Below, piece after piece: positions 17,948 through 62,100 of a DNA stretch of 64,000 nucleotides. The stretch is from Epinephelus fuscoguttatus. Lineage: Eukaryota; Chordata; Actinopteri; Perciformes; Serranidae. The stretch covers positions 19,555,479-19,619,478 of the forward strand of contig NC_064762.1 of the NCBI RefSeq assembly GCF_011397635.1, written 5' to 3'. A program made the position numbers and the translations under genes. Position 1 is the stretch's first letter; every line of letters starts with the position of its first letter. The notes under the pieces are model-generated. The model had not been told where the DNA came from and did no database searches. It saw only the letters and a program-made list of their open reading frames with translations.

Positions 17948-18686
17948 TACACCCATCAGCCAAAACATAAAAACCACTGACACGTGAAGTGAATAACTTT
18001 GATTATTTTGTTCCAGTAGATTGTTTCATTCTTTCATGTGGATACCACCTGACATGTTCCACCCACTCAAACCTCCCCAATGGCAGTGGCCCTCCAGCAG
18101 GATAATGCACCATGCACTGCAACCACCACTCATGAATGGCCAAAGGAATGTGACAAAAACCTCAAAGGGTCAACCTGGCCTCCAAATTCCCCAGATCCCA
18201 ATCTGAATGAGCATCTGTGGCATGTGCCATTAACCCACCTCACAACCCACTGGACTAAATGAATCTGCCGCCGACGCACTAGTGCCAGACACCGCAGGAC
18301 ACTCCTTGAGATCCTGTGTCCATGCCTCGACAGGTCAGAGCCAAGTCCGATCCAAGGAAGCCCCACCTTGAGCAGATTGGGATCTGGGAAATTTAGAAGC
18401 CAGGTCAACACCTTGAGCTTTTTGTCACGCTCCACGGGCCATATCTGAACGCTTTTGTAGTGTGGCATGCTGCTTTTTTCTGCTTGGGGGCCACTGCCAT
18501 TGGGGAGTACTGGTGCCATGAGGCGGGATACTTGGTCTGCAACAGTGTTTGAGTGGGTGGAACATGTCAGGTGGTATCCACATGAATGCCAGAACCAAAG
18601 GCTTCCCAGCAGAACAATGCACTGGAACAAAATAATCAAAAGTTATTCACTTCACCTGTCAGTGGTTTGAATGTTTTAGCTTATCA

Positions 18687-18691
<5 letters not shown>
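17948..18691. mobile_element. Fold-back element made of two inverted Tc1-like transposase 3' ends
   Basis: The two ends, read inward, begin TACACCCATCAGCCAAAACA and TACACTGATAAGCTAAAACA, then share ACCACTGACA(C/G)GTGAAGTG and further similarity for roughly 250-300 bp, so the element folds into a long imperfect hairpin. TA at both borders fits Tc1/mariner target use. Within the left arm the plus strand encodes LQQDNAPCTATTTHEWPKEC and WPPNSPDPNLNEHLW, the Tc1 motif carrying the second catalytic Asp and the PDLNPIE-HLW region; the right arm carries a diverged copy on the minus strand (LTWLLNFPDPNL). Both copies are broken. A relative lies at 29182-29535. An alternative explanation is two independent insertions in opposite orientation, but the shared unique borders argue for one composite unit. 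Confidence 0.75.

Positions 18692-18724
<33 letters not shown>
18690..18724. repeat. (TA)n microsatellite
   Basis: About 17 TA units directly abutting the right end of the Tc1-like fold-back element. It may have grown from the TA target site. Confidence 0.85.
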
Positions 18725-18728
<4 letters not shown>

Positions 18729-18889
18729 GAAAAGTACCAAAATGTGTCCCATACACATTGTTTCATTACAGACAAACATTTTAATAAAATAAAATTTAAA
18801 AAGTATATAACAGCATTAGGGAATACAATGTGCCATATCTTAGAAATAAACAATTAAGATGGAGGAGCATTTATTTCCCCAGTATCTAG

Positions 18890-32895: not shown

Positions 32896-33573
32896 GATGA
32901 CACCTTGACGCTGCTTCACAGATTGCACTTGATCTCATGTTTGTAATGGATAAGGGATACTTAAACACATTGTTTACACTTCGGGTCATGATAGAAAGTG
33001 TTAACGGTTTACCGGGAATCTTCCGATCACTGTACTTGAGGCAGAAGGGATACGAGTTGTTGGATGTTATAGATTAATAGCTTGCCATTCTCACTGTGAA
33101 CCTTAACTCGCCCTTCCTCAGGTGATAGCTGTGTAGCATATGACTTAATGTTAGGGGATTTTAGACGTCAAGATCATGTAAATCTAATGTATGACAGCTT
33201 AATCATGTTCTGTCCTGTAAGATGACCTGCTTTCACTGTACCTGTACAACTGTAAAAGGTGGAACACGAACTGCAAATGCAAGGCTTTTAGCACCCAGTA
33301 TGGACAGGCTTTGGAAGACACTATACCTTGTTTGTAGACTATTTTTAACTTGTGTAATTTATGTGATAGTTGCTTCAAGCTGTCAATAGATTTCGATCGC
33401 TGTATAAATCTGACTCTGATCAACATTCCACTTTCTTTAACCAATGAAGACAGCAGCCTTGAAACATAGCTAAGTGCCATAAGGTCAAGTATGCCAGCCT
33501 TCTCTAACCTCGTGCTTCCTGTACAAAGCATACATGTGAAAATGTTTCCTGTAATCCAGCTGTTCTACATATC

Positions 33574-33579
33574 AATAAA
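33574..33579 (+). terminator. acat2: acat2 poly(A) signal
   Basis: AATAAA about 680 bp after the acat2 stop codon. The acat2 transcript probably ends near 33,595. Confidence 0.65.
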
Positions 33580-33691
33580 GAATAAGCCATAGAGTCAAAC
33601 ACTTCTTTGAATTCGGTCAAACGCCTGCACAATAACCACAGCTAGCCAATCTGAATTAACAAATCAACGGTCATTTACAACCATTGGAGCT

Positions 33692-33697
33692 TTTATT
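33692..33697 (-). terminator. tcp1: tcp1 poly(A) signal
   Basis: AATAAA on the minus strand about 175 bp after the tcp1 stop codon. Together with the acat2 signal it leaves a gap of roughly 100 bp between the two convergent 3' ends. Confidence 0.6.
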
Positions 33698-33871
33698 AAG
33701 TGTCCAAAAAAAAAATCACTTACAGTTCCTCTGGAAGAGAGAGCTCTTGAGGAGAGGGAGTGGGAGAACAGTAAACAGGCAAAGTGCACGGCCTACACTA
33801 GAGCAACAGCCATGAAGAGCTCCTTGCGTATAAATACAGATGATGAATCTATCGGGACTGATCGCAGCTTT

Positions 33872-36800
33872 TTAACCCAGGGATCCCGACTGCACGGCTT
33901 CCTGGTACGACTGCCCACCCTCCTTCGGCTCGGGGAACAGTTTGATGAGGTCGTCAATACGGAGGATGGTGATCGCGGCCTCGGTGGCAAACTTGAGGCT
34001 CTTTGTCTTGACCATGGTGGGCTCGTACACGCCGGCCTGACGGTTGTCTCTGGGCTTGCCGTTGACCAGGTCCAGACCAATCCTACAAGACAAAAATGAT
34101 AGTGGTCAAATACTGAATGTTTTGCAAAGTATGTAAGATTGTTTTATCAAACGCCTACAACATCAGGAACAGCTGTCAGGAGTTCCATGATGGTGCCGTT
34201 ACGAAGCACTCACCACTTGAGATTCTTGCGCTCAGGATTAACCTGCGCCTCGTTATGGAAGGCCCGGAGCTTGGCCACCAGATCAGTGGAGTCCTGTGCT
34301 GCGTTCACTGCCAGCGTCTTGGGGATGATGAGGAGAGACCGAGCAAACTCAGCAATAGCCAGCTGCTCTCGAGAACCCTGAAGAAACAAATGATAAGCAG
34401 GATTGCAATGATTTGAGATTTTTACAGAAGGATAACCACCTCAAAAACATCAGTTTCATGATGTCGCAATTATCAGCGACACCGAACCTCAAAGGAATTA
34501 GAGACAAGGGTTTATACATGGTTAAAATTTAAAAAGTATGTAACTATGCAGTATAACCAAAGCATATTAAATTACATGTTAGCAGCAATGCAATGGCATG
34601 TTAAATTAACTACTAAATGAAAAATAACATCAGCCATGAGCTTTTTTTTGGTCTATTTTTTAATTAACATAGCATACTGTTGTGACAATAGGCAGACTGC
34701 TCCTGTCTGTCCCTTTAACTCGCACAGACACTCAAGAGTCTGTTTTAGAGGTTCCTGAATGGACAGAAAAATTAGATGTGGCCAGGAGCTGGGATATAGA
34801 AAATGATTTTGAGGGCACGTTGTCTGATCTACGTTTAAACCTCAAGTATTAAAGCAATACACAAGATAGTTTGCATACTGGATCTCTGTCCTCGAGGACA
34901 CCCCCTTGTTCTTGATGGTGTTCTCAAGCAGATTTGGGGATATTCTAAGTAATAACACACCGCTGATTTTATTTTTTTGGCAAGGAATGGAGATAGGCAA
35001 TATCAGCCTTGCTTCTCTGACATTTTATCTGCTGTTGCATGTGGGTCTGTGGCAAAAGATGACGAGTCTGACAGGCAGTCAGAAGAGGAGAGGAGAGGAG
35101 ATGTGCATGTGCAGATAAGCAAATATACATGGTATGATAACCATCAATTTTCATACTACTGCAACCCCAATGATGATTAACATCTCAGCGTTGGAGAAAC
35201 TTGTTTAGGACAAACACTGTACTCGTGGCAAATCCTCTCATAAAAAAAGAAAGAATCCAATCCCAAATACCCCGTCAGCTGCATACTTGAAGAAATACAA
35301 GTGTTTCTGTGGATATGGCTCACCATGCTGGTAGCATAATTTTCAAGGTAGATAGACAGAGCTGCCTCCACAGCGCCACCTCCTGGCACTACGGACTTGG
35401 ACTCGAGCACTCTCTTGACCACACAGAGAGCGTCGTGCACTGAACGCTCCATCTCGTCACACATGAAGTCGTTGGCCCCTCGCAGAATGATGGATGCTGA
35501 TGTGCGTGCTTTGGTGCTGAGAGGGTTAAAAGTGAGGAGAAAACAGAGCCGGCACAGTTAGCATGCGTCAGACTGTAGAAATGTATACGCAGAGAGATAT
35601 CAACTCAGCATTGTGTAAGAAGCACTTCATAATTAGTGGTGTGTATAAAGCATAAAACAGTGCTGTAGTTGCAGTTCTTACTTCTTGACAAGGATGAGCT
35701 CATCATCACAGACGCGCTCTTGCACAACCTCCTCAGCCTGGCCAAGCATAGTGGCCTCAAACGTCTCCTCTCCCTCCAGATTGGTCAGTGAAGGGCAGAC
35801 GGTGGCTGAGAACAGACAAACACAACCAACGTCACTGTGATATTAGTTTACTGAACATAAGGGTTTTAATCAAGACATTCAAACATGTACACAAACTTCA
35901 GCGTACTGCCACCCTACCTCCTGTTGCCTTGGCGATGCGCTTCAGGTCCTTCTTCAGAACCCTTCTCACTGCCATGGCTCCTACATCCACAAAGTACTTA
36001 AGACACATGTCATCGATGCCACCGGTGGTCAGGATAACGTTGGCGCCTGATGCCAAAATCTTCTGGATCCTCTCCTTGGTGATGTCAGATTCCCTGGAGC
36101 GACAGAATCCAAACTTGTTTCAGCTTCACCAGCTATACTTAGATACAATACAATATAAATATACAAAATTGTCCAGCCCACAATACTGGTGCAACAGCTC
36201 AGGGAGAAACTGCTGCTCTATATTGAGGCTGATAATATTTTCTCCCACGCGTATCACTGTGTAAACTATTGATTGAGCATCACAGCAAATTTAAATGGGA
36301 TGATTTGGATGTGCTTATGATGGTGCAAGTAGAAGAAAATAAGTCGGTACCTTTGTCTGATCTGGTCAAGCTTCTCTGGGTCGCTGATAACGACTTGGAC
36401 TCCCATCTTCATCTTGGTCTTCTGCAGGCTGAAGTCCAGGCAAGCAATCTTGGCGTTGAGGACACGCTTTACCATCCCTTGGGAAAAACATGAAACAGCA
36501 TGTTTAGCAGGGGAAATATCCAAATAATAATTACATTTGCCAATTTTATCTCACAACTTGACAGTATGAGGACAAAATAACGCTCATTTAACTTTGGGCT
36601 ATTATTCCATTGTCTGGCTAGAAAAGTTGTGACACAGTTTAGAAACCACTGTGTCTACATTCTTTGTAAAGCCAATTTACTGTCTCCCACGCGTATCACT
36701 GCTCACGCCATCATGTGAGGCATGGCAGCAAATTAAATGGGAGTTGTAATGGTAATGACAATCATCACATTTTACTATTGAAATTTGGGAGTTTCAAGCA

Positions 36801-39528
36801 ACTAACATAAAAACTACTATACCTTGTGATCCAACTGTGCAGTTCAGTGCATAGCCATTAACCAAGAAGCTCTCCTTCTGGCTGCGGCCGTGGGCTTTCA
36901 GTACGTTGACAGAGTTGATGGGATATTTGGCCATCCCCTTGCTGTCCACAAACTTCACAGCAATGGCAGCATCCACCACCATGTTAGCAAAAAAGTCTGC
37001 GTCACTGAGGGCTCAGGGTTAAGGCAGATAAAGGACTTACTCACACAGACAATTATATGCTGCCTGCAAACTCCACTGATTCTGTCGGTTGGACGCAACC
37101 AAAATATTTCATGCACTGTGCAGCAAGAAGGATACACTCCAATGATTTTGGAGGACATGGAAGTCTTGGCTGCATTGATTAAGCACTCTCTGCCCAGGTC
37201 ATCTGTTCCAATAGTGAGGTTCTCATTAATGTAGCGAACTGCCTCCCTGGAAGATGAAAAGGCAAGTTTGCATGTCAAACATCTGCACAGATCTGAGGCA
37301 TTCAGTAATTATCAGTGTCAATTCAAAAATATTTCAGAACAGTGTAAAGAGCAGTTCTCAGTGTTGGCATCTTACTTGCAAGCCAGACGATATCCACTGA
37401 TGACTGACGTGGGGTGAATCTTCTGCTTCACCAGCTCATCTGCACTCTTGAGCAATTCTGCAGCAAGGATTACCTAAAAGAACGTAACACAATATACATC
37501 ATAAGTAAAAACTGGCATAGGCATCATAACTGAGAATACTTACAACACCAATTAAAATGTTTAGTCAAAAGGTATGAGTTTCATATTGTACCATCGTTTC
37601 ATTAGGAGTGGCAGAAATGAGGCTGCTCAACCCCTTCAGACACTGAAGGACAGTTTCTCTCTCCTGTTAGCATAGCCACACACCCGTATTAAAAGGCAGA
37701 TGCATGGTACTAAAACAGGACATATTTTTACATCAAACTTGGGATGCACTGATTTAATGGCTGAACATCAGTATCGTCCGATGTTCACCTTGCTAACTGC
37801 CATCGGCCTACTGGCAAATAATATGACATATACCTGTAGCAGTGGCCAATGTTTTTCTACTGTGTCACATCAGTTTTATGCAGGAAAGGAGAACTTAAGA
37901 TTAACGCTGTCCCATGGGACAAAAGAAAAAGTGTTTGGGATAAACAGAGATCTTCATGATGACCAGACGCACTAAACCCACTACTGACACATCAAGGAAT
38001 GCACCGTATTGCTACCCTGATTTCCCTCCACTGTGGAACTAGCTGCTAACAGAGGTCAAGTTACACTGTGATGCGTTCAAGCTCTATCCATTAAAAATTA
38101 GTATTAGGCAAAGGTAAATCATAACATTATCATGATGTGTTCAGATGTAATCTTGTGAAATTTAGTTTTTGGCGAGAAACTTAAATTCAGTTGATTGAGG
38201 GAGAAATTTTGTTGATGCTTTCACAACAATATAGAAAAGTAATGAGAGGAAATTCTATTTTAAATGTGGTAAAAGGCTTTTTGAAACCACGATTTTATTT
38301 TTAAGATGTTTTCCATGTGTAGGAAGATTGTTTCATAACAGTGTGTTTGAATTTGTGCTTATTCAAAGACAGTGTAATAAAGGACTGATTTACTTTATTA
38401 CGGTTCAGTTATTTTTTTCTATAGTGAAGATTTTTGTTTCCCTGGCACAAGATGGGGGAATAAATAACAAGAAAAACAACAGTATCTGCTATCAGCCAAA
38501 TTGTTTAACATCAGTATCAGCCCAGACTTTCTCAATCGGTGCATCCCTACAACAAACTGACCTCAGTATTATGTGAACAGCTAGAAATATGTCTATTAAG
38601 CCAGTAGCTCTGGCACCATATTGGAGCAGCTGTTGACCCGACTCACCACAGACGTGGTCCCATCTCCGACCTCTTTGTCCTGCAGGTCAGCCAGCTCACA
38701 CAGGACCTTGGCAGCTGGGTGCTCCACTTCCAGCAGCTTCAGGATGGTTGCTCCATCGTTGGTGATGGTCACGTCCTATCGTACATTAATATGACACATG
38801 AGCAACTTAGATCATAGTATATGTTATAAAGTGAAGAGACTGAAAAAAGATGATGAATGTGACACTGACCCCAATGTCGTCCACCAGCATCTTGTCGAGG
38901 CCAACAGGTCCCAGGGAGCTCTTGACGATGTTGGCGATGGATGCTGCGGCCATGACTGCAGAGACAAAAAGAAGCCGCAACTAGCCATTAGCACTACATA
39001 ACACATTCTTTACATTTAAAGGACAACCGGTTCACCCTTTAGCATGTCTGACTTTACTTGTAAAACCACCGTTATTCATTTATCCTGTCATTTTATTGAG
39101 TGGGGCTCACAGTGAAGTAGCCACACCTTCAGACCATGACAGTGTTCCTCTATCCCATTAGCATAGCCATCCATTCATGGTGTTGCGAGTGGAAGGTACT
39201 ATAATGGGAATACGACTTCATAGCTAATGCTGTTAGTGTAATGTGCACTTTGTGTATAAAAAACAGACTTCACTGTATTTAGCAGAATTTCACTAGAGAC
39301 TGCAGAAGCGGCTTAAAAAGTTAGCTAGCATTAGCATTAGCCACACGTGTGGTACATTCAGTAAATGAAATCACTTCTCCTGTCGACCATTCGTGACGCA
39401 CATAAAATACACGCAGCGTATATGAAACACCAAGTAATAGAGCACCACAACTCACCATTTTGAGTACGAACAGATTCGCCAGTTGTCCTCTGGCCGAGCA
39501 CGTTTAACGGACCCTCTAATAGCGACAT
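33872..39528 (-). CDS. tcp1: T-complex protein 1 subunit alpha (CCT1)
   Basis: One of eight subunits of the cytosolic chaperonin CCT/TRiC, which folds actin and tubulin using ATP. Twelve exons (transcript order): 39456-39528, 38870-38955, 38647-38775, 37376-37473, 37136-37246, 36823-37004, 36351-36477, 35918-36093, 35682-35805, 35324-35516, 34214-34377, 33872-34082. All GT-AG, continuous frame, 557 residues (human 556). It starts [20 protein letters not shown]. Nucleotide-site motifs are present: [19 protein letters not shown] with Asp60, and GDGTTSV with Asp91; the C-terminal equatorial part has [13 protein letters not shown]. Introns 6 and 7 contain snoRNA-like sequences, and intron 3 a hAT element and a 72-nt exon-like block. 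Convergent with acat2. Confidence 0.97.
36167..36300 (-). ncRNA. Candidate H/ACA snoRNA in tcp1 intron 7
   Basis: A 134-nt minus-strand sequence with two hairpins. Hairpin 1 has a lower stem TCCCA..TGGGA, a pocket (ATTTAAATTTG / GTGATACGCG) and an upper stem CTGTG..CACAG. A hinge AAAATA fits the H box (ANANNA). Hairpin 2 is closed by CAGCC..GGGCTG with inner CAATA..TATTG pairs, and is followed by an ACA triplet (36170-36172) three bases before the end. It is intronic and in sense orientation with tcp1, as expected for a host-gene snoRNA. Human TCP1 introns are known hosts of SNORA20 and SNORA29, and this is likely one of them or a lineage duplicate. Its 5' hairpin shares an 18-base identity with the copy at 36608-36743. 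Confidence 0.65.
36608..36743 (-). ncRNA. Candidate H/ACA snoRNA in tcp1 intron 6
   Basis: A 136-nt minus-strand sequence. Hairpin 1: lower stem CTCCCA..TGGGAG, pocket (TTTAATTTG / GTGATACGCG), upper stem CTGC..GCAG and CTCAC..GTGAG. H box ACAGTA at 36678-36683. Hairpin 2: outer stem GGCT..AGCC and a perfect inner stem GACACAGT..ACTGTGTC. The ACA box (36611-36613) sits three bases from the 3' end. Length, spacing, box placement and sense orientation in an intron all fit an H/ACA guide RNA for pseudouridylation. It is probably the SNORA20/29-type RNA known from human TCP1; I cannot decide which without alignment. Confidence 0.7.
37592..37663 (-). other. tcp1: 72-nt in-frame exon-like block in tcp1 intron 3
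   Basis: On the minus strand, acceptor TGCTAACAG|G and donor ATG|GTACAA bound 24 open codons ([20 protein letters not shown] then NETM). Exon 3 ends and exon 4 begins on codon boundaries, so inclusion would keep the frame, placing 24 residues after the ATP-site GDGTTSV. The amino-acid composition looks helical and gene-like. The polypyrimidine tract before the acceptor is weak and human TCP1 has no counterpart that I know of. It may be a cassette exon, an exon lost elsewhere, or chance. Confidence 0.3.
37739..38549. mobile_element. Non-autonomous hAT element in tcp1 intron 3
   Basis: The ends, read inward, are TTGGGATGCACTGATTTAAT and TAGGGATGCACCGATTGAGA, each followed by GGCTGA..ATCAGTATC / GGCTGATACTGATG. 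Flanks are CATCAAAC (37731-37738) and CAACAAAC (38550-38557), an 8-bp duplication with one mismatch. This GGGATGCACCGAT terminus is common in fish hAT MITEs. No transposase was found. Confidence 0.75.
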
Positions 39529-39760
39529 TTTGGACCACCACACAACCAAGAAGAAAGGGAAGCGGCGAGGTGCACTATGGGTAAACCGGCAATAACCAGA
39601 AGGTTCGAGAAGAAAATTTATTTATAAAATAAACGGTAATTGCCGTATGAGGGATTTAACTATGTAAAATATGTCAACTTTAAATTTATAACGAAGGTTT
39701 GGGTCAACAAGTTCCCTTAGCAAGTTAGAAAAGAACGCTTTGTCACGCTATTTCCTTTAA

Positions 39761-43513: not shown

Positions 43514-46500
43514 TCAGGCGAAGCTACTGGAGCTCAGACACTGAAACTTCTCCCTCAGAGACTGGACGATTTTGGGTTGGCTCTGCTGTGGCTCGCTCCA
43601 CAGGTACTTCTCCAGTTCTTCGCGGTTCAGGGACCTCAGCGGGTCGCATGAGCGCACCGGTGTGCACGGCAGACTCTGGGAGTGGGCGAGACCCCGGCTC
43701 TGATTGGAAAGGGCCACTGAGCTGCCGTTTCGCCGCGCCAACCTGTCCTGCTCCTGCTCGCTCTCGTCCTCTGAGCGGATCTCGACATAGTCATCGTCGT
43801 CCTCCCCATCGTCCTTAAAGTTAGCCAGGTAGTTCTGGGTGGCGGTGAATATGCTCAGTGCAGAAGCCCGGTTCAGGACCACCACCTGTTGACCGTCGTG
43901 CAAAGTGAGGTCTGACTGTCCCTGGGTAGAGCGCTCTGGGAGGCTGCTCTGCCGACCAGCGCGGCCCAGACTGGGGCCATGGAGTCTGTCTGTGGATCGA
44001 TCCACAGTGGGTCCGTTACATTTGAGTCCAGACTGGTTCTTCTCCTGCTGCTGGCCGCCCAGAGAGCCGAGCGACTGACAGTGACCGGATGGGGAAGACT
44101 TTGAGGAGGGAGTCGACGGAGCGTTAAAGGAAGGATGTCTCTTAATGGAACTGTACACGTGCTCCTCTTTTTCACTCGGCGCCGACATGCACGAGCTCCA
44201 CCTCTGGGACGGCGGGGAGGTCTGAGAGGGAGGGGAGGTCTTGAGAGAAGGGATAGAGCAGGCCGAGGTGAGTCTGCGCTGTGGGGTGGAAGACGCTCGA
44301 GCATCGTTCAACTCGCTGGATGAGGAGACGAAGCTGGCCAGCTCTCCATTGCTGTATGTGGAGTGGAGCCAGTCCTCCTCCAGGGAGGTCTCAGGCATGG
44401 ACGGAGAAGACGGCAGCCCTGGATGGGAGTGATGTGGGCCAGCTGGAGCGGAAGGATCCCTAAACATCACCTGGTCATAGAGCTGGGAGTACTCCGCTAT
44501 CCTCGCACCTGGAGAGGAAACACAAAGAGGATGTAAAGAAGGTGTGAATACATATTTTTATAATAAACTATAAATCAAGGAATCTCTGTCTGTTTGTCTG
44601 TGTGGCCTTTGAGTATCTCGCAAACGGTCATCTGATCTACTTTACACTCGGTGGGTGTATTGCTGGGGGCCAGAGGACATGCGTTGTGGACTTTAGTGCA
44701 ATGGGCTTTGTGCAGCATTGGGGGCGGGGCTTCACCGTGTATTTCACCAGTGTTTCTGACCATAGCTGCGACGGGTGTTTTTCAGGGGCAGATTTAGTGA
44801 CTGGGGGTCCAAGGCAAACGCCATCTTGCTTTTCTTTACACCCTTTCTCTAACTGGGAATGTTGGCATTGGCAGTGATAGAAGATGTATTCAAAACCATA
44901 AGTACCACAAAGTAAAAGTCCTGCATTCAAATTTTTACTTTAGGTGAGGACTGAAAGAGAGGGATTATCAGCACATTGTACTTAAATGTACTGTCCAAGG
45001 TGGAGTTTTCAATTCTAATATAATGGTGGATAATTTAATGAATAATAATGCATCATATTTTAAATGTTATATTTTGTGAGTAAAATATGAATTTGAAATG
45101 AACACAGTAAATAATTACTGCTGCTGACTTGATTTTTTAAGGGTTTGGGTGGTCATTTGTCATTATTTTTGGATACAATGAGTTAGAATAGCAACATAAT
45201 TCAATATTTTTTATATATAAACATCATAATAAATCTTTAGCTGTTTGGGGCCCAGGTGTATTTGATTGTGATGTTGCAACCAGAAACCCCACAGTCCAAG
45301 CAATCGGCCAGTTCCGAGCATACATGTTTTGAAGGGGCAATGCACAAGTAAATATAAAATTTGCACAAGACTTAAAAGCATGACAGTGTATGATTGCTTC
45401 TATTTCTAGCTGAGACGTGATGTAAAGCTTGATATGACCTTGCAAATGAATGACCCCAATTATACTACTTTCCACCAACATGGAACGGGCTATGTTAAAA
45501 ATCCTGAACCTAATTTTGAAACATTTGGAGCGTTTCAACCAAAAAAAAATATTGGTCCGGAACCTAAAAGGTTTGTTTCCTGGCTGGAACCAAAAATGGC
45601 AGTTTTTTATGTTGACCTAAAGTGTGAACCGTGACAACATCAGTGGGCATGTCGTATTCTACAGGTTGGAAAACAAATAAATGAAATTCCAGAACATAAC
45701 TTTGCAGGTAGGCTAATCAATGCTATCCACCATCCATTAATGACGCATTCTTGATTACCTGAGCAGACCAAGTTCAAGAACCAGATCTCATTTGGTGAAA
45801 AAAGGGGGTATTAGTTCCTTGAAATGAGGTACAGAGATTTTATATTTGAGGAAAAAGAGAGTGCTCTAATCACATTGGTACTCAGTATTGGCAGATGCCC
45901 TGAGTTTCAGTTTTGGGAAAGCATTCAGACTGAGCGAGGTCAGTGCATTCTTAGTTGCCACTATCAACAACGCTAGAGTTAGAAACAATCGTTCTAAGAG
46001 CTACATGTTTGGTCTTACCTATGGCAGTTCCCCCTTGTTTCTTTTCTTCCAAGATGGCTGCCAGGTCTTTTTGCTTCTTCTCATTTCTGGCGCGACTACA
46101 AGCGTCTCCAGGGTCCATGCTCCTCATGCGCAGCAGCTGGTTGGCTTTCTTGATCTTCTGGCTGTACTGCCGCGCCATCAGGAACACGCGGTTCTTTGAT
46201 TTATCCATCAGGTCCAAGTCCACAGACTCACCCAGCAGGAGAGAGGAGGAGGCCAGCGGCGAGTCCAGCCCTGCCAGCTCCCCCGAAAACAAGCTGTGGA
46301 GCTCCTTGAGGGGAATATCCCTCTGAGGGGTGCTTCGCTGAGGAAGCTCCACCAGGTCGTCGTCCTCTAGGCGGAAGCTGCCGCTGCTGAGGCGAGCCAG
46401 TCTGTTACGGATGCTCTTCACGGTGCCGGGGAGGGGCTCTGGGGTGGCAGGAAGGGGGCGAGCTGCAGGACCAGGACTGTGGTTTTCTTCTGCAGTGGCG

Positions 46501-49500
46501 CCTTCACTTTGAGGGTCTGGCAGTTGGATGACTGGGATGGTGAATGACGGTGTAGAGGTGACAGGTGGGGGTTTAGGCTGATGTGCTGGGGGACTCTTGG
46601 GTGGAGGGCTGGCTGCTTGAGGACTAATTACAGGGGGGCTCTTTGTAGGGCTGTTTTTAACTGAAGACGCCTTCTTAGGCGACTCAGTGGCACCAACAGG
46701 GAAGGCAGCAGGAAATCTATCAGCTTTCTTCTCATTGTTCTTGATGTAGTTCTCCAGATCGTTCCAGATCTCATCGACCTGCTCTGACATCTTATCCCCT
46801 TTCTGTGAGCGCTGGGAGAAAGTCTCAGAGGCAGACGAGGAGGAATAATCTGGCTCAGAGGAACATGGGACAGGGTGGGACGTGTCTGGTGCTTCGTCCT
46901 CTACAAAATGGAGACTTTCCTCGGATACAAACCCTCCGAGGCTTTCAGTTAGGTCCTGCTCAGAGGCCAGGAGACTGTCCCTCTCTCGTTGTAGTTTGTC
47001 GCCTTCATTCGTTCCTTTAGGCTCTGTTGATGGAGGCTCCCTGAAGCAGATGGTGTCGTAGATGTTCTCCTCCACTATCTTGAGCTCACATGGCCCAAAT
47101 GGCCTCCCCTCCTGTGTTGAGGACCGGTTGCTGTCTGAGGAAGTGTCTGGTTCAATCAGTGGCTCTGTGATCGCAGGAACCTCTGGAGCATTTAGTACCC
47201 TTGCTGCTTGGGCCTGGGAACCCTGTGCATCTGCAGAAGTTTCTTTCCGGCTCTCCTCTGGGTCCCTTCTGACGAGGCCCATGCTCTTCAAGTCCTCATA
47301 ACTGATGTTGTCATACACGTTTTCTATATCGTCTATCGTCAGCTGCTCAGCTGAGGATGATCCAGATATGTCGTTGCTGGAGGATTCAGTGTGGATCACT
47401 TCCAGGTTGCTGTGATCAGTCTGGTCGTCATCAGGACTCTGTCGGGCCTCCGTTGCCTTCTCCCCCGCGCTGCTCGCCCTCCGCAGGACTCTGCTCCCGT
47501 CAGGTGGAGGGTCAATCTGCACAGTGGGCACCTGTTCAACATGCCAGCTGCAGGGCCGAGCTGTCTTGGGCGATGAGGTGGCTTCCATCCTCTCCGTGGG
47601 CGTCTCTGGTTCTGGCCCGCTCTGCTCTGTCGGGACAAACATCTGGTAGATGTCCTCGTCCTCGTCGTCGGGCTGCATGGTCCGCTGGCGGGTGGGGAAC
47701 ATGGCCCTGCGAGCGCGGTGGTCCGCCCAGATGTTCCTTACAGGATTCTCACTCTCTGTGATTACTACAGAGGGGATGGGGGTGTCTGGCGGCTCCTCTG
47801 TCACGTGAGGTGTCCTGAGAAGCGGTGGGTGGCGACTTCCATCCCTCACCAGTGATTCTCTGGCTTTCTGCAGGACAGGAAAGCAGACGTTGTTGTTTAA
47901 CATGTCGTTAAGTTAGTCTAAAATCATCAAGACATAAGCAGATTAAATTATCATGGTGAATTTGTGATTAATACCTGTAAGTCTGAGGAACTCATGTTGA
48001 AGGTTTTCCACTGTTCTATACTGTCGACAGATGCCTGAGGGTTCAGCCTCTTCCTACTGCTTTTGCCAGGGACTCGCAGCCGCTTTCCGCCTCCCTGAAT
48101 GCAGAGTTATCAGCATTAACAACATATCTGAAGAGGTCATACTATATGTATGAGCATCACTCGTTGGGCAGCTTTAAACTCACCAGGCCACTGTCATCTT
48201 CGTCGTCAGCATCTTGCTGATGAGGCTCCTCTTCTCTGTCACTGTGGTCAAAGTGATCGCCGGGGTCCAGGGACTCCTGCGATTGATTGATGAGGCTGCG
48301 GCTGCGGCCGATGGTGCCCAAAGCCAGCTGAGACATTGGCGAGAGCAGGGTGGCTCCCAGACTTATTCGCTGGAGAGGAGAAAGGTTTTTTCAAGAGACT
48401 GTGTGAGAACTCATGCACCTCAACTTAGAATTTATTTAGTTAACAAAACTATGAATAAATATGTCAGCAACCTTTTTTTCCATGAGTAAGACTAGACGAC
48501 GACGAGACAGCACCTACGTCATTAAACACTAACTGTGATCATATCAACATGCAGTACTGATGATGAAAAAAAGTAGTTAAAAAACTTTAAGTAAAATCTT
48601 GTTTTACTTTAGTTGCCCAAAAAAGGGCAACAAAATATTTTAGAGTGGTCAGCCAGTGTTAGTTAAGCAGTTGTGTATTTGTGTGTTGGTCCATGTTGCA
48701 AGCATTGGTTATATGAGTGGGGATGTCGACGTGAAACTGAAGTAGGGCAAGTAATAATTCAACCTGTGTTTTTCATTAGATAATAAAATAAAATCTTATG
48801 TGAAATAAGTTGGACTAAATCGACAAAATTATTTTTTAGGCTAGGCTAGATTCACCTTCTTTGATGACTAAAAAAATTAAATGGCAACAGTTGTCATCGA
48901 TTAAAACTAAACTAAAATAGTGATGTTTTTTGTTTGTTTTTTAAAAACTAAGATAAAATTAAAATTGCTCAGACTTAAAACTGGACCAAAAAACAGGATG
49001 AGGTTGGGTTAGGGTTATATGATAAAAACTAACAAGGACATTTGACACAGGACTAAGACCAGGACTAAATTAAAAAATAAAAGCAATAAATTAACACTAC
49101 CTGAAACTGTTCATCATGTCTGGTTAAGACTCACCTTTTCACCATCTGTGTTGGCAGCATTCTGCTTTGCATTCTTCAATAACTTTGATAGAGGTTCTGG
49201 AAAGTCAAAGAATTATCGATTAATTCTTGAAGTTCAGCCTTGCAAATTGTATAATTCAAAAAAGATATAAAATCCTTTTGTAATCTTGTTACCTTTCCTG
49301 CGTCCTCTACGAGGAGTTGGACCCTCCTTGGTCTGAGGGGAATCCTTCTTGTCGCCATCAGGGCTGTAATGAAACCCGGGATGATCTGGAGAAATCATAG
49401 AAAAGATGCCAAAAACATAATTATAAAATGCATCAAATATGGTTGCTGTAGAAGAACATAAAATTAAACAGACTTTAAAAAATATGATTTTGTTAAATTA

Positions 49501-55129: not shown

Positions 55130-55259
55130 TGTGTGATTGTGTGAGTGAGTGTCTTCCGTGTGTGTGTGTGCACGTCTGTCGTGTGTGACCTTGGTTGGGG
55201 TCACCAGCTGTGGTGTGGATGTGGGAGAAGGTCTATCTCAAACAGCTGACAATAGCCCC

Positions 55260-55307
<48 letters not shown>

Positions 55308-58300
55308 CAGCACACAATTAGCCACAATTAGTTTGTAAATTGTTTCTTCCTCCACGTGCCTTTCTTATCCTACACTGCGAAAGAAAAATGGTAGCCAGAG
55401 GAGAAGGTGTGTTCGGTAGGTGCCGTGTATCTTGGCATGAAGAGCAGCGTCGCGTTTCACACACACACCGACACAAAGGAGCTCCACATTATTCCTCCCA
55501 TAGGAGCGCACTCACACAGAGCTTAATAAAACATTAACAGCGTTAGGTATGATAAGGTGACAACTGTAATACCCCATCTGTCAGTGTGTGAGCTGTAACT
55601 CTGTCAGTAGGCAGCGAATAAAAGAATGGAGGAAGAAGAAAAAAAACTGGGGCATGGAGGAGGGAGGCAGAGAGACCCTGAGGCACAACTGACGGCAGAC
55701 ACATTGACTCCTGCTGAGGTGACTTCTATGGAGCGTGTCAGTTTGTCAGGGAGGAGAAAAAGGTAATGCATTGATCGACGTACACAATGGAGCTATGTGA
55801 GACGCTGGGAAGACAGTATGTGGAGGTGAGATCGAGATAGGGTGACAAGCAGAAGATGGGTTTTGTACAGTAGACAGGTGAACTGAATATATGCACACAC
55901 ACACACACACACACACACTTTGGTTGCTGCCTTACCGTGGGTAGTTGGTGCAGTACTGAGTATAAATGTGGAATTCTTCACTCTGTAAAACAAAACAAGG
56001 GCAAATTAGTTGATGCAATAAAGTGACAGGACGCAGGACTAACTCAACAGTCAAGAAGGTAAAGATGATGTCATGTGATGCTGATGTGTGTTCACTTGTG
56101 TGTTAAATCCAGGCCTGGATTGCCTTCCTATTGATCCTGTTGTTTCCCATTCTCCACGAGCACGCAAAACATAGGTTTTGATCAACATTTGTATATACAG
56201 AGCAACCAGTTGTCTCTCTTTTCTATGACAAAAATATGTTTAAAAGGTGACCCTCTGTAGCTTTAACATCAGTTTTCTAACAAGCTCACAGTCACAATGT
56301 TTGCAGGTATGATGTTTTCTATGTTCACCACCGTGAGGGTGCATCTCTGACAGTTTTTTTTGGGTAATTTTTGGTTCAGCATAATTACAGGATAACATTT
56401 AATTAAAGGTCAGTGACGTATGTTTTTGCTCTTAAACAACAAATCATGTACTTTGTGTCTACTGTCAACCTGCTTGATGAGATCTGATTTGGAAAGTCAG
56501 TTTCCTCTTTCAAATCACTTCATGAAAAAGTATTTTTATCATGCGGCCTTTTGAAAAAAAAAAAAAGAACTTCATTATCATATAAATGTATAAATTGATC
56601 AGATGTTTTTATGGTTCATTGTTCTCATGTGTATGTGTTTACGACTGTATTTTTTTGTTTTTTCACTTTGTAACTTCTGGTTTTAATAAATTCAATATAA
56701 AAAAAACTTTATTATTGTCTTATTATTGTGACCATGCATGCTAAAAGCTTCCCATTTTTTATGTTTTACCAGACAGCCACTGGTTTTCTTTCATTTCTGT
56801 TTGATGAGAAAATTTCATGACAGTCTCCAGACTGATGACATCACAGTCGACATCAGGTCTACATTAGTTTTTATGAATGTTATACTATTGTTGCTTCATA
56901 ACACAGTTTAATTGCATTTTAATTTGAAAAGTCTACACTGTTTTCTCATAACAATAATGTTCCTTTGACGTTCACAAAGCTGGATTTCACAACCAAAGCA
57001 AGAGTCTGCTAATAATCACATCATATGAAAATAATCTGAACACAATGGATATCTGGAACAAGTAAAATTGGTTCCAAACCACTTGTACTGTACGATGCTT
57101 TCAAGGTCAAGATTTTCTGTCCTTCTCGCCTCACTGGTCGGACTGTACCTGTAGCGGTCCGGTGCAGATTTGATGACGGTTATTTCATGTTTACGGCTCT
57201 ACACACTCTGAGCCCACAGACAAGGCATCCCCTCTCCTCCGTTCAGTGCTACTAATTGAAAGTCAACCCTGTAGCTTATGATTAGCCCTCGCCCTGGCCT
57301 TTAAGTCTCTTTTGATCCCGACGGCCCTGAGCGCTCGGATTATACATCCCCTCATACTTCATCGCCGCCCCTTTAATTGAGACTTTTCCCACCTTGCATG
57401 CCTCTCTGAACATCAAAGACATCAGAGGCCGTATGATTTTTCAGAGCCTGAATGAACCTCTTTTTCTCCATTCTCCACGCCCTATTTCTTGATCTCATTT
57501 TCCATGCCATCTCTTTATCGATCTTCTATGGATATTTTTTTGATTTTCCTCTCTTTTAGAAATGTATTCCTGCTCTTTTCGGATCCACACTCCCCCTCAT
57601 CGAGCTCTGTTGGAGGCCCGGACGTGAACCCCTCACTGTTGCATAACGTGAGAGCCCAACTGAACTCTATTTGTGTCCATAAACATTTGGGGGTCACAGG
57701 ATGCAGGAAGCGACATCATAAACACACAGGGCAGATGACAGTCTGTCCTGGTTCATGATGTGTGCTCACACACGCACACACATTGAGAGAAATGTGGACA
57801 TTCACACATATTTCCCAACATGTGATTCATGGTCATACAGCATGCATACACTGGGCGTGTGTGGATGTTTCTTGCTTTAGATAAATATACATTCCTATTC
57901 AAGCCACAGCGAACAATTCAAGCTACCTACACAAACGCAAACAGAACACACACACACACGCAGACTCTCACGATTTGTCAGCCCGAGGTGCTCCGTGGGA
58001 ACTTTCCTAAATTGAAGAGCAGGGCTCTCCTCCTAGTCTCCAGCAGTCTGCCGCCACAGACCAGGCCTAAGCGCAACCAGATGTGCCACCATCGATTCCT
58101 GACGACACACACCAACGCACGCTGCTGATACACGCTCTTAATACCCCTCTGGACCGTGGACCCGAGACCACAAGATACATAAATGCTTCTATGAAGTTCA
58201 AATTTGTGCAGAGCATGCACGTCTGCAGACTTTGTCATTAAAGCTGACATGTCTGCACACACTCTTTGAAGCCAACCATGTAACCAGCTGACCCTGAAAT

Positions 58301-59103: not shown

Positions 59104-59183
<80 letters not shown>

Positions 59184-62100
59184 TATGTCTCACTGTAAAT
59201 GGTGATGGTCAGTAGTTACACAATATTTCCAGTCAGTGGACGCAACCAACCTACTTACTGACAAATCCATCGAAGCCTAAAGACAGCTTTCACCATCAAC
59301 AGCTACTGTCTCCTCCTGAGACCTGAGCTATTGTCTGCTAAGCATTTTTATTTTCTCCTAGCTATTTGGGCTAAGTAGGACCTGATAACTTCAAAAAACA
59401 AAGTGTGTTATCCAGCTGTTCAATCACAGTGTAGGAGGGGCGGGACAAATACCACAAACACCAACTGTTACATCACTGAATAACAACAACGCTGAAAGAG
59501 AAATTCATACTGAACCCACACAGACTGAGGGGTTCGTCCTCTCTCCCTACATGCTTCAGCTGTCCCCTTCATCCAGAGCAAGTACTTTGGGATGGCAGTT
59601 TTACTTCTGACGATATTCTGTGTCATGGCAACCAGACGCAACCAAAGTGTCTCAGCTGAAAAAACGCTGCACCTTCTTTGCATCTCACTGTCCTTCTGTG
59701 CTCTGCATTTAACAATTAACAAGAATTTAATTTGTTTCAAAACTGTCATATTTGTTATTTAGAAAGCAACAACATACCTAATAACTAAAATCAGGATAAA
59801 CCGAGTAAAAGATGGCGGTCAAACTACACATTGCGCTCTTAATCCCCACAGAGTTAATTCCTTCACCCAGACAGCGCTAGTACCAGACAATCTTCCTCAA
59901 CGGATGAAGTTTGCCAAGCTGCATTGTGATTATCAATGTTTAGATTTTGATTTTTTTTATCAGCACTTAAAGAACTTCATGTACTTTTTCCGAAGTCAAA
60001 AATGCACTTTAACTCTCAGCGTTTAAGCCAACATGAAGGTGAAGTCTTTAAAGTGATCAGAACATCGAAAATCCCATGAGAAATGTCAAGACTTTATCTG
60101 CGGAGGCTCCAGAGCAGCAGCTAATGGAGCTTGTGGTGAGATTATTTTACCGCTGTTTCCAAGATCAAGAATTTAACTTTTAATCTCAATGGGAAATGTT
60201 TTCTTAAAGTAAACGATGAGTTGTGTAATGGGCTATCATAACTGTTTTAGGTTAAATTTGACAAAATCAAACTCACTATTTTCAAGTCCTGGCCACCAGC
60301 TGAACTATATTCATGCATATAAACATTTACAGGTACAAACAGCAGTGAAGTGTGTGTGTGTGTGTTGGAAAGGGCCAGAAGCAGCAACTCAGGAGTTCTT
60401 GCAGTAAAAAACAAGGGCTACTATCATTAGTTTTAATGGACATCTACAGTACGAGTACCAGTATCATGAGAGAGAGGTTATCAGAGGCAGGATGTGATTT
60501 GGATTTCAAGAGGTGGAGCACTATTCTCAGCTGGCTGTGATCCAATTTCACCCCCCGGCTATAAGGATGTTACTGTTTTTATACTAAATGCTGTCCTGGC
60601 TACAGAATAGAAACCAACTGTGGGGATCATTTGAGATCAGTTCACGATGCTGTAATGTTAATCAGTCGGTAGCAAGATGTCATCGCGCTGGTTTGTTTAT
60701 GGATCTCAGTTAATTATGCAGAGTGGTGCTGCGGGCTGCTATAAAACTGCTCCACCTAAACAACAGCTGCTGTATTTAGGGCGGCTGTGACGCTGACTCT
60801 GACTAGTGTTTTTTTATATATGGTCAAACAGTTGCTCTGTGGTACTGGGTGTAATTGCAGTTGGGTTGGGAGGGAATGTAAAGTGTTTTAGAGGAAGTGC
60901 AGGAATGCAGCACATTATCATGGGACATAATCATGCAGTCATTTTTTTAGGGCACGGACAGGGTGAGGAGTAGGAGTGGAGGAATAGCTGGAACACGCAG
61001 ACGAAGAAACCGGGGATACTCTGACAGGAGTTGCTGAGTCTAGTTTTTCGTGATGAAGCACTGCTATTATCCCCCCTCCAGTAAAAAAGGTGATTATATA
61101 TTTGGACGGTCCTTAAAATTCCTCTGGAGGTGTCCTTCCTCCCGGGCCCTCCTGCTGCCCTGTAAACTCACATTCCGACCGCTGAAATAATTCTACTAGC
61201 GTCAATAAACTGAGCTGACTTCATGCAGCATCTTCACCTGATTTTTGTTAACTTATCTCTCGTATTAGAGTGTTTTTTTTTTTCTATCTGTGTGTGTCTG
61301 TGTGTGTGTTATGTGTGAGTGTCTGGACCAGCTGTTTGGACATGTTTCAACGAGCAGAGGAGTGTGTACAGGCAGAGAGCCAGGACGAAGTACTCAGAAG
61401 TATCAATACTACAATGTAAAAACACTCCATGACAGGTAAAGGTCATGCACTCAAAATCCTACTTAAAGGAAACTTCACCCCCAAATGATCTTTTCTATAT
61501 CAGTTACTCATCTCATGTTATCTTTAATTTGTGAGGAAAACTTTATTTATCTCGCATGCCTCCACGGTGAACAACAAATCAAAAAACAGAGAAAATGCTT
61601 AATGAATTGAAGTCATTGGGGGCCACGTTTAACTACACCAAAAATATATCAAAACACCTGTTTACAAACTGTCACGCAACTCCTGCAGTCTGATCCAAGT
61701 CTCATTTATCCAGTCGTATGCTCAGTGCTTCCTAAACAAGTGCATTTTCGGAAAAAACAACTATCTCAAAAACTTCTACATAAATAGTTTCACACACAGA
61801 TGAGTAGCACACCTGCTCTGTTAATGCGGAAGGGTTTTGAACAGTAACATGTTACTACAGTTATAAACAGTTATAGGTTACTTCAATTCATCACGTGTGT
61901 TCGCTTTATTGGATTTTTTTGTTCACCTTGGAGGCATGAAATTAACACAGAGCTTCCTTTGCAAATTCAAAGTAACAGGGCAGGGCTGCTGTGTATGTAA
62001 TAAAATTCAGTTTTTAATACTGACTCAACAATAGGCATATTAAGACTGGATTAACCTTTACATTGTTCCAGGAACCTCTCTTTCCTTGTGTCCACACAGC

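Follow-up and report, generated by a model that had tools for sequence, protein, structure and literature searches.

The tcp1 gene carries, in two adjacent introns, a pair of sequences that resemble H/ACA snoRNAs and share the bases of a putative guide pocket. This raises the question of whether the two elements, designated A and B in the following, belong to a known snoRNA family, how they are related to each other and which RNA they may guide. TCP1 is the host of SNORA20, for which 18S U651 is given as the target (PMC3766210). In chicken, intron 9 of TCP1 hosts ACA20, with 18S-612 (3+7 pairs, 5' pocket) and U2-91 as predicted targets, while ACA29 is listed as an orphan in TCP1 intron 1 (PMC2653536). 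The same text describes intra-host duplication as the route by which almost all chicken snoRNA paralogs arose, often into adjacent introns and with the guide regions kept (PMC2653536).

In the present work we analysed the window, a stretch of 64,000 nucleotides, with tcp1 at its centre of interest. We consider it probable that A and B are paralogous SNORA20-type H/ACA snoRNAs which originated by duplication inside the gene into neighbouring introns, and that their 5' pocket pairs with 18S around U651. Two further RNAs of the SNORA29 type were found in the same gene, and their predicted pockets may point to a position close by.

Results

The host gene and its introns

The tcp1 gene (CCT alpha) was located on the minus strand at 33875..39528, with 12 coding exons mapped by peptide blocks. 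The translation of the hand-joined exons was recognised as T-complex protein 1 subunit alpha (1044 bits; residues 4-557 of 558), with 554 of its 558 residues aligned. Introns were numbered by counting coding exons. Intron 6 (36822-36478, 345 nt, GT...AG) contains element A and intron 7 (36350-36094, 257 nt, GT...AG) contains element B, both in sense orientation; the shortness of the introns is in keeping with a fish gene. Intron 1 (39455-38956) contains SNORA29 and intron 3 (38646-37474) a second, SNORA29-like RNA, designated C and not mentioned in the earlier note, which brings the H/ACA RNAs in tcp1 to four, two of SNORA29 type in introns 1 and 3 and two of SNORA20 type in introns 6 and 7. 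Upstream of tcp1 and on the same strand, long open stretches were noticed at 45954-47912 (-) and 43517-44557 (-); a Pfam search of 43517-44500 within the latter returned no family.

Two H/ACA elements in adjacent introns

Element A occupies positions 36608..36744 and element B positions 36167..36302, both on the minus strand. A (36608-36745) and B (36167-36303) each fold as two hairpins with z values of -5.85 and -4.07, respectively, and in either case none of 200 shuffles was equally stable. The 5' hairpin of A (36684..36742, minus strand), with the predicted guide pocket arms UUUAAUUUG and UGAUACGCG, folds at -30.6 kcal/mol (36684-36745, z -6.00), and that of B (36242..36300, minus strand), with the predicted arms UUUAAAUUUG and UGAUACGCG, at -16.9 kcal/mol (36242-36303, z -2.79). 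The remaining part, made up of an H box candidate, the 3' hairpin and the ACA box, extends over 36608..36683 (-) in A, where the H box candidate reads ACAGTA (fold z -2.63 for 36608-36686), and over 36167..36241 (-) in B, where it reads AAAATA (fold z -3.11 for 36167-36245); these features were read from the letters and in B also from the SNORA20 alignment. The 3' hairpin of B has a nearly closed pocket and resembles in outline the 3' hairpin of Rfam SNORA20. Both H box candidates are situated 15 nt past the CAG of the upper stem. A and B display the layout of box H/ACA RNAs, namely two hairpins, an H box between them and an ACA 3 nt from the 3' end, the ends being those set by the Rfam match, from which the real ends may differ. 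The earlier note's description of two-hairpin, H/ACA-like sense elements with boxes at the right spacing was thus confirmed, and the assignment of A and B as H/ACA snoRNA-like elements, one per intron, is supported.

The two elements share the 18-mer CAGTGATACGCGTGGGAG, present in two exact copies on the minus strand, at 36259-36242 (B) and 36701-36684 (A), as had been described before. These are its only places in the window, even with 3 mismatches permitted; 0.02 would be expected by chance and none of 100 shuffles yielded two copies. The right side of the 5' pocket is identical in A and B, and the left side, which reads TCCCATTT-AATTTGCTG in one copy and TCCCATTTAAATTTGCTG in the other, differs by one A.

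Family assignment

The Rfam SNORA20 model aligns end to end (positions 1-128 of 128) with both elements, reaching 44.9 bits for B (E 5.8e-6 in a search of 751 bases, 4.9e-4 in the whole window) and 37.4 bits for A (E 2.5e-4 and 0.021, respectively). Both matches were found at a permissive threshold and both stay under the SNORA20 gathering score (GA) of 60 bits. SNORA20 is nevertheless the best family by bit score for A and B, matched over the full length, and its host, TCP1, is also theirs. In the 751-base search, SNORA74 surpasses SNORA20 for A by E value (4.9e-6), at fewer bits (31.1; GA 71); in the whole-window Rfam list at E up to 1, SNORA74 is missing.

At curated cut-offs, the only RNA that Rfam reports for the whole window is SNORA29 (39211-39074). 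An assignment of A or B to SNORA29 was considered and rejected, since SNORA20 outranks it at both elements and the SNORA29 match sits in intron 1; of overlapping matches from one Rfam clan the best alone is reported, so that a weaker SNORA29 match at A or B would be hidden. An orthologue of SNORA20 or SNORA29 had been expected among the two elements. SNORA20 does align to both, albeit below its gathering score, and neither corresponds to SNORA29. One model matching twice is the outcome which the earlier note had named as settling the relationship.

Rfam searches of 33500-36120 (introns 8-11) and of 36800-39700 gave no further SNORA20 match, and a model of A and B detected no third SNORA20-like copy in the window, its next match having 14.2 bits (E 0.32). 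Searches for relatives of A and B by DNA pattern yielded 0 matches in viral contigs and prokaryote genomes, collections which are uninformative on fish; a eukaryotic 28S sequence likewise gave 0 matches there. Elsewhere in the window, weak SCARNA7 matches at 59139-59274 (-) and 55222-55371 (-) scored 22.3 and 21.6 bits against a cut-off of 65 and are probably due to chance. Weak matches below cut-off to mir-297 and mir-1277 on both strands and to mir-466 on one strand, all at 18672-18744, probably reflect a simple repeat.

Relationship of the two elements

Judged by their alignment, the 5' hairpins of A and B are clearly paralogous; their score of 28 was reached by none of 2000 shuffles, which averaged 6.8. 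For these hairpins the proposed intron-to-intron relationship holds. Fifteen column pairs are predicted in both 5' hairpins; 13 of them do not differ, one has both of its bases replaced (C-G to U-A) and one a single base. The compensatory change that had been claimed for the upper stem is accordingly real, but amounts to just one of the 15 shared pairs. The stem tips of the two hairpins differ in build.

A pair of this kind might consist of one working guide and one decaying pseudogene with its pocket still intact. Decay into a pseudogene is the fate of many duplicated snoRNA copies (PMC10234308), and each element shows one sign of weakness, B in its less stable 5' hairpin (-16.9 versus -30.6 kcal/mol) and A in its lower SNORA20 score. 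We nonetheless regard such decay as unlikely, given that hardly any difference is seen in pocket and lower stem though tips and 3' hairpins have diverged, that one upper-stem pair was altered on both sides with pairing maintained, and that candidates for H and ACA boxes are retained in A as well as in B.

The 3' halves are a different matter. Their local alignment score of 10, against a null mean of 7.2, was reached by 85 of 2000 shuffles, and among 300 structure-keeping shuffles 19 reached the identities and 60 the alifold energy. One alignment of A and B preserves 5 pairs of the 3' hairpin by double change; when the 3' halves alone were realigned, 5 pairs were kept with 2 double changes, figures matched by 167 and 178 of 300 structure-keeping shuffles. 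We grade the similarity of the 3' hairpins as marginal, in support of neither homology nor its absence, and the statement that they are "unrelated" could not be upheld. With strong identity limited to the 5' hairpin and 3' halves that are marginal by score and alifold energy, it is conceivable that gene conversion or a template switch transferred the 5' hairpin alone to two 3' hairpins of independent origin. The 3' halves, however, align best locally over a colinear stretch of 58 columns that extends to the ACA box, and the SNORA20 model covers both elements fully, which makes a copied hairpin quite improbable. We favour a duplication inside tcp1, which would have placed SNORA20-type copies in the adjacent introns 6 and 7; the extent of divergence suggests that it may be old.

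Target of the 5' pocket

Target scans were run on working versions of 18S (human) and snRNA sequences, in which U651 lies within GCGUAUA-U-UAAAG. A first scan, with mismatches disallowed, placed U651 for neither A nor B. It favoured U649, with the upper stem extended by UUG/UGA, a geometry that leaves just 12 nt from target to H box; U649 ranked second for A, behind U1673, and for B it came first when up to 3 spacer bases were permitted but was missing when the limit was 1. In the second scan, which ranked the 446 uridines of 18S and U2, the distance to the box was set to 13-16 nt and one mismatch next to the target was permitted. For each of the two elements, U651 then came first among the 446, with 6 right and 3 left pairs, one mismatch and 14 nt to the H box, the fit requiring a G opposite A650, adjoining the target. 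As the mismatch rule was set after the first scan had been seen, this ranking is support for U651, short of proof. Matching the pocket arms to 18S, as the earlier note had proposed, gives U651 only with a mismatch beside the target and on a working 18S sequence.

The Rfam SNORA20 consensus served as a positive control; its fit to U651 comprises 7+3 pairs without a mismatch, in accord with the published one. Under the mismatch rule it places U652 at the top, with the known U651 next; since the control puts U652 above U651, the scan resolves a site to about a base and points to a segment, not securely to a base. When the arms were shuffled, U649 or U651 appeared in the top three in 9 of 300 cases for A, 6 of 300 for B and 5 of 300 for the SNORA20 consensus. 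Most likely, the conserved 5' pocket would pair with 18S around U651.

The 3' pockets of A and B gave no convincing target in the working 18S, U1, U2 and U6 sequences, and the suggestion that the 3' hairpin had diverged towards a new target found no backing there. The same result weighs against a division of labour in which the 5' pocket keeps 18S U651 while one copy, or the 3' hairpin, has gained another target, for example U2 U91 or an rRNA site. Such a division would fit the prediction of both 18S-612 and U2-91 for chicken ACA20 (PMC2653536), and U2 U91 ranks 2 of 446 for A and 29 for B in the second scan. The right arm on U2, though, forms 3 pairs only and contains the mismatch, and the Cajal-box-like UGAG near the 3' loop of B has a counterpart in 409 of 1000 B shuffles. 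We judge divided work to be improbable and retain 18S around U651 as the likely target of the 5' pocket in both copies. UGAG as a Cajal-body signal was discounted; all four RNAs of tcp1 contain it, but so do, depending on the RNA, 385 to 487 of 1000 shuffled versions.

SNORA29-type RNAs in introns 1 and 3

SNORA29 in intron 1 (39074..39211, minus strand) was matched by Rfam with 63.7 bits (GA 50, E 1.7e-8). Its 3' box is apparently AUA instead of ACA (GGATAAAT, Rfam alignment). The permissive search of 36800-39700 revealed RNA C in intron 3 (37580..37722, minus strand; fold z -2.43), whose SNORA29 score of 44.1 bits (whole-window E 3.6e-4) is below the cut-off of 50. The similarity between C and the intron 1 SNORA29 was reached by 5 of 2000 shuffles for the 5' half and by 6 of 2000 for the 3' half. 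In the 5' hairpin, 4 of 19 shared pairs show double compensatory change, and on these predicted folds the two RNAs are a stronger compensatory case within tcp1 than A and B.

In the second scan, the intron 1 SNORA29 and C both had U649 in third place, and the Rfam SNORA29 consensus had it in second. The right arm formed 7 pairs in each of the two RNAs and 6 in the consensus, without a mismatch and with exactly 14 nt to the box in all three. Two sites outranked U649 for the intron 1 SNORA29 (U1400 and U1596, the latter itself counted among the modified sites) and two for C (U1400 and U160), against one, U220, for the consensus. With shuffled arms, U649 or U651 reached the first three ranks in 4 of 300 cases (intron 1 SNORA29), 8 of 300 (C) and 1 of 300 (consensus). 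Because the three pockets are mutually related, the three fits are not independent tests. We grade the predicted fit of the SNORA29 pockets to 18S U649, a site two bases away from that of SNORA20, as a moderate lead.

Discussion

From sequence, predicted structure, family match and the paralogy of the 5' hairpins we infer the expression, processing, target and age of A and B. Following duplication, each would probably be released from the spliced tcp1 intron and bound by H/ACA proteins. The 5' pocket would pair with 18S around U651, with GCGUAU on one side and AAA on the other, and direct pseudouridylation as published for SNORA20, while the 3' hairpin, which has drifted, probably serves mainly as a second protein-binding arm.

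If SNORA29 guides 18S U649, the RNA listed as an orphan in chicken acquires a simple target next to the one of SNORA20, with which it shares the host. It would also bear on the expression of SNORA29, which is reported to be lower in humans than in mouse, macaque and chimpanzee (PMC11758842). U649 seems to have a guide already: the chicken table gives 18S-610 to ACA46 (PMC2653536), and 610 would be human 649 provided that the offset of 39 that separates 612 from 651 applies here too. Searches of the open-licence literature returned no report on a SNORA29 target or on fish copies of SNORA20. It is tempting to go further and to view tcp1 as the dedicated host of one old guide family, whose members in introns 1, 3, 6 and 7 aim their 5' pockets at 18S 642-656. 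Members of the SNORA29 type would address U649 and those of the SNORA20 type U651, and the orphan SNORA29 would act as a second U649 guide. We put this forward as a tentative idea that is more probably wrong than right.

Among known systems, SNORA20/ACA20 (RF00401, clan CL00030) is closest to A and B, sharing the TCP1 host, the full-length match, the box layout and a predicted pocket for the same 18S segment. A and B differ from it in scoring under its gathering score and, compared with the Rfam consensus, in a G for U in the right arm that creates the mismatch adjoining the target. Chicken ACA20 has one isoform in the published table, as opposed to two copies here, and is reported from intron 9, as opposed to introns 6 and 7 (PMC2653536). 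SNORA29/ACA29 (RF00429) belongs to the same clan, CL00030, and shares the host. A, B and the intron 1 SNORA29 have CCCATT in common at the start of the 5' hairpin; aside from this motif, the 5' hairpins of A and B show no significant similarity to the SNORA29-like ones (scores reached by 425 to 1001 of 2000 shuffles).

As duplicated members of the known SNORA20 type, A and B constitute a finding that is sound and ordinary in kind. Three of the four tcp1 RNAs score below the gathering score, and annotation based on cut-offs only would therefore miss them. Like the cis-duplicated snoRNAs described for chicken (PMC2653536), A and B retain their guide regions, have diverged in the remainder and lie in adjacent introns, as those often do. 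Less ordinary, and different from the chicken cases, is that here two families of one Rfam clan, both hosted by TCP1, are each present in two copies in one tcp1 gene, and that all four predicted 5' pockets can be read onto one segment of 18S.
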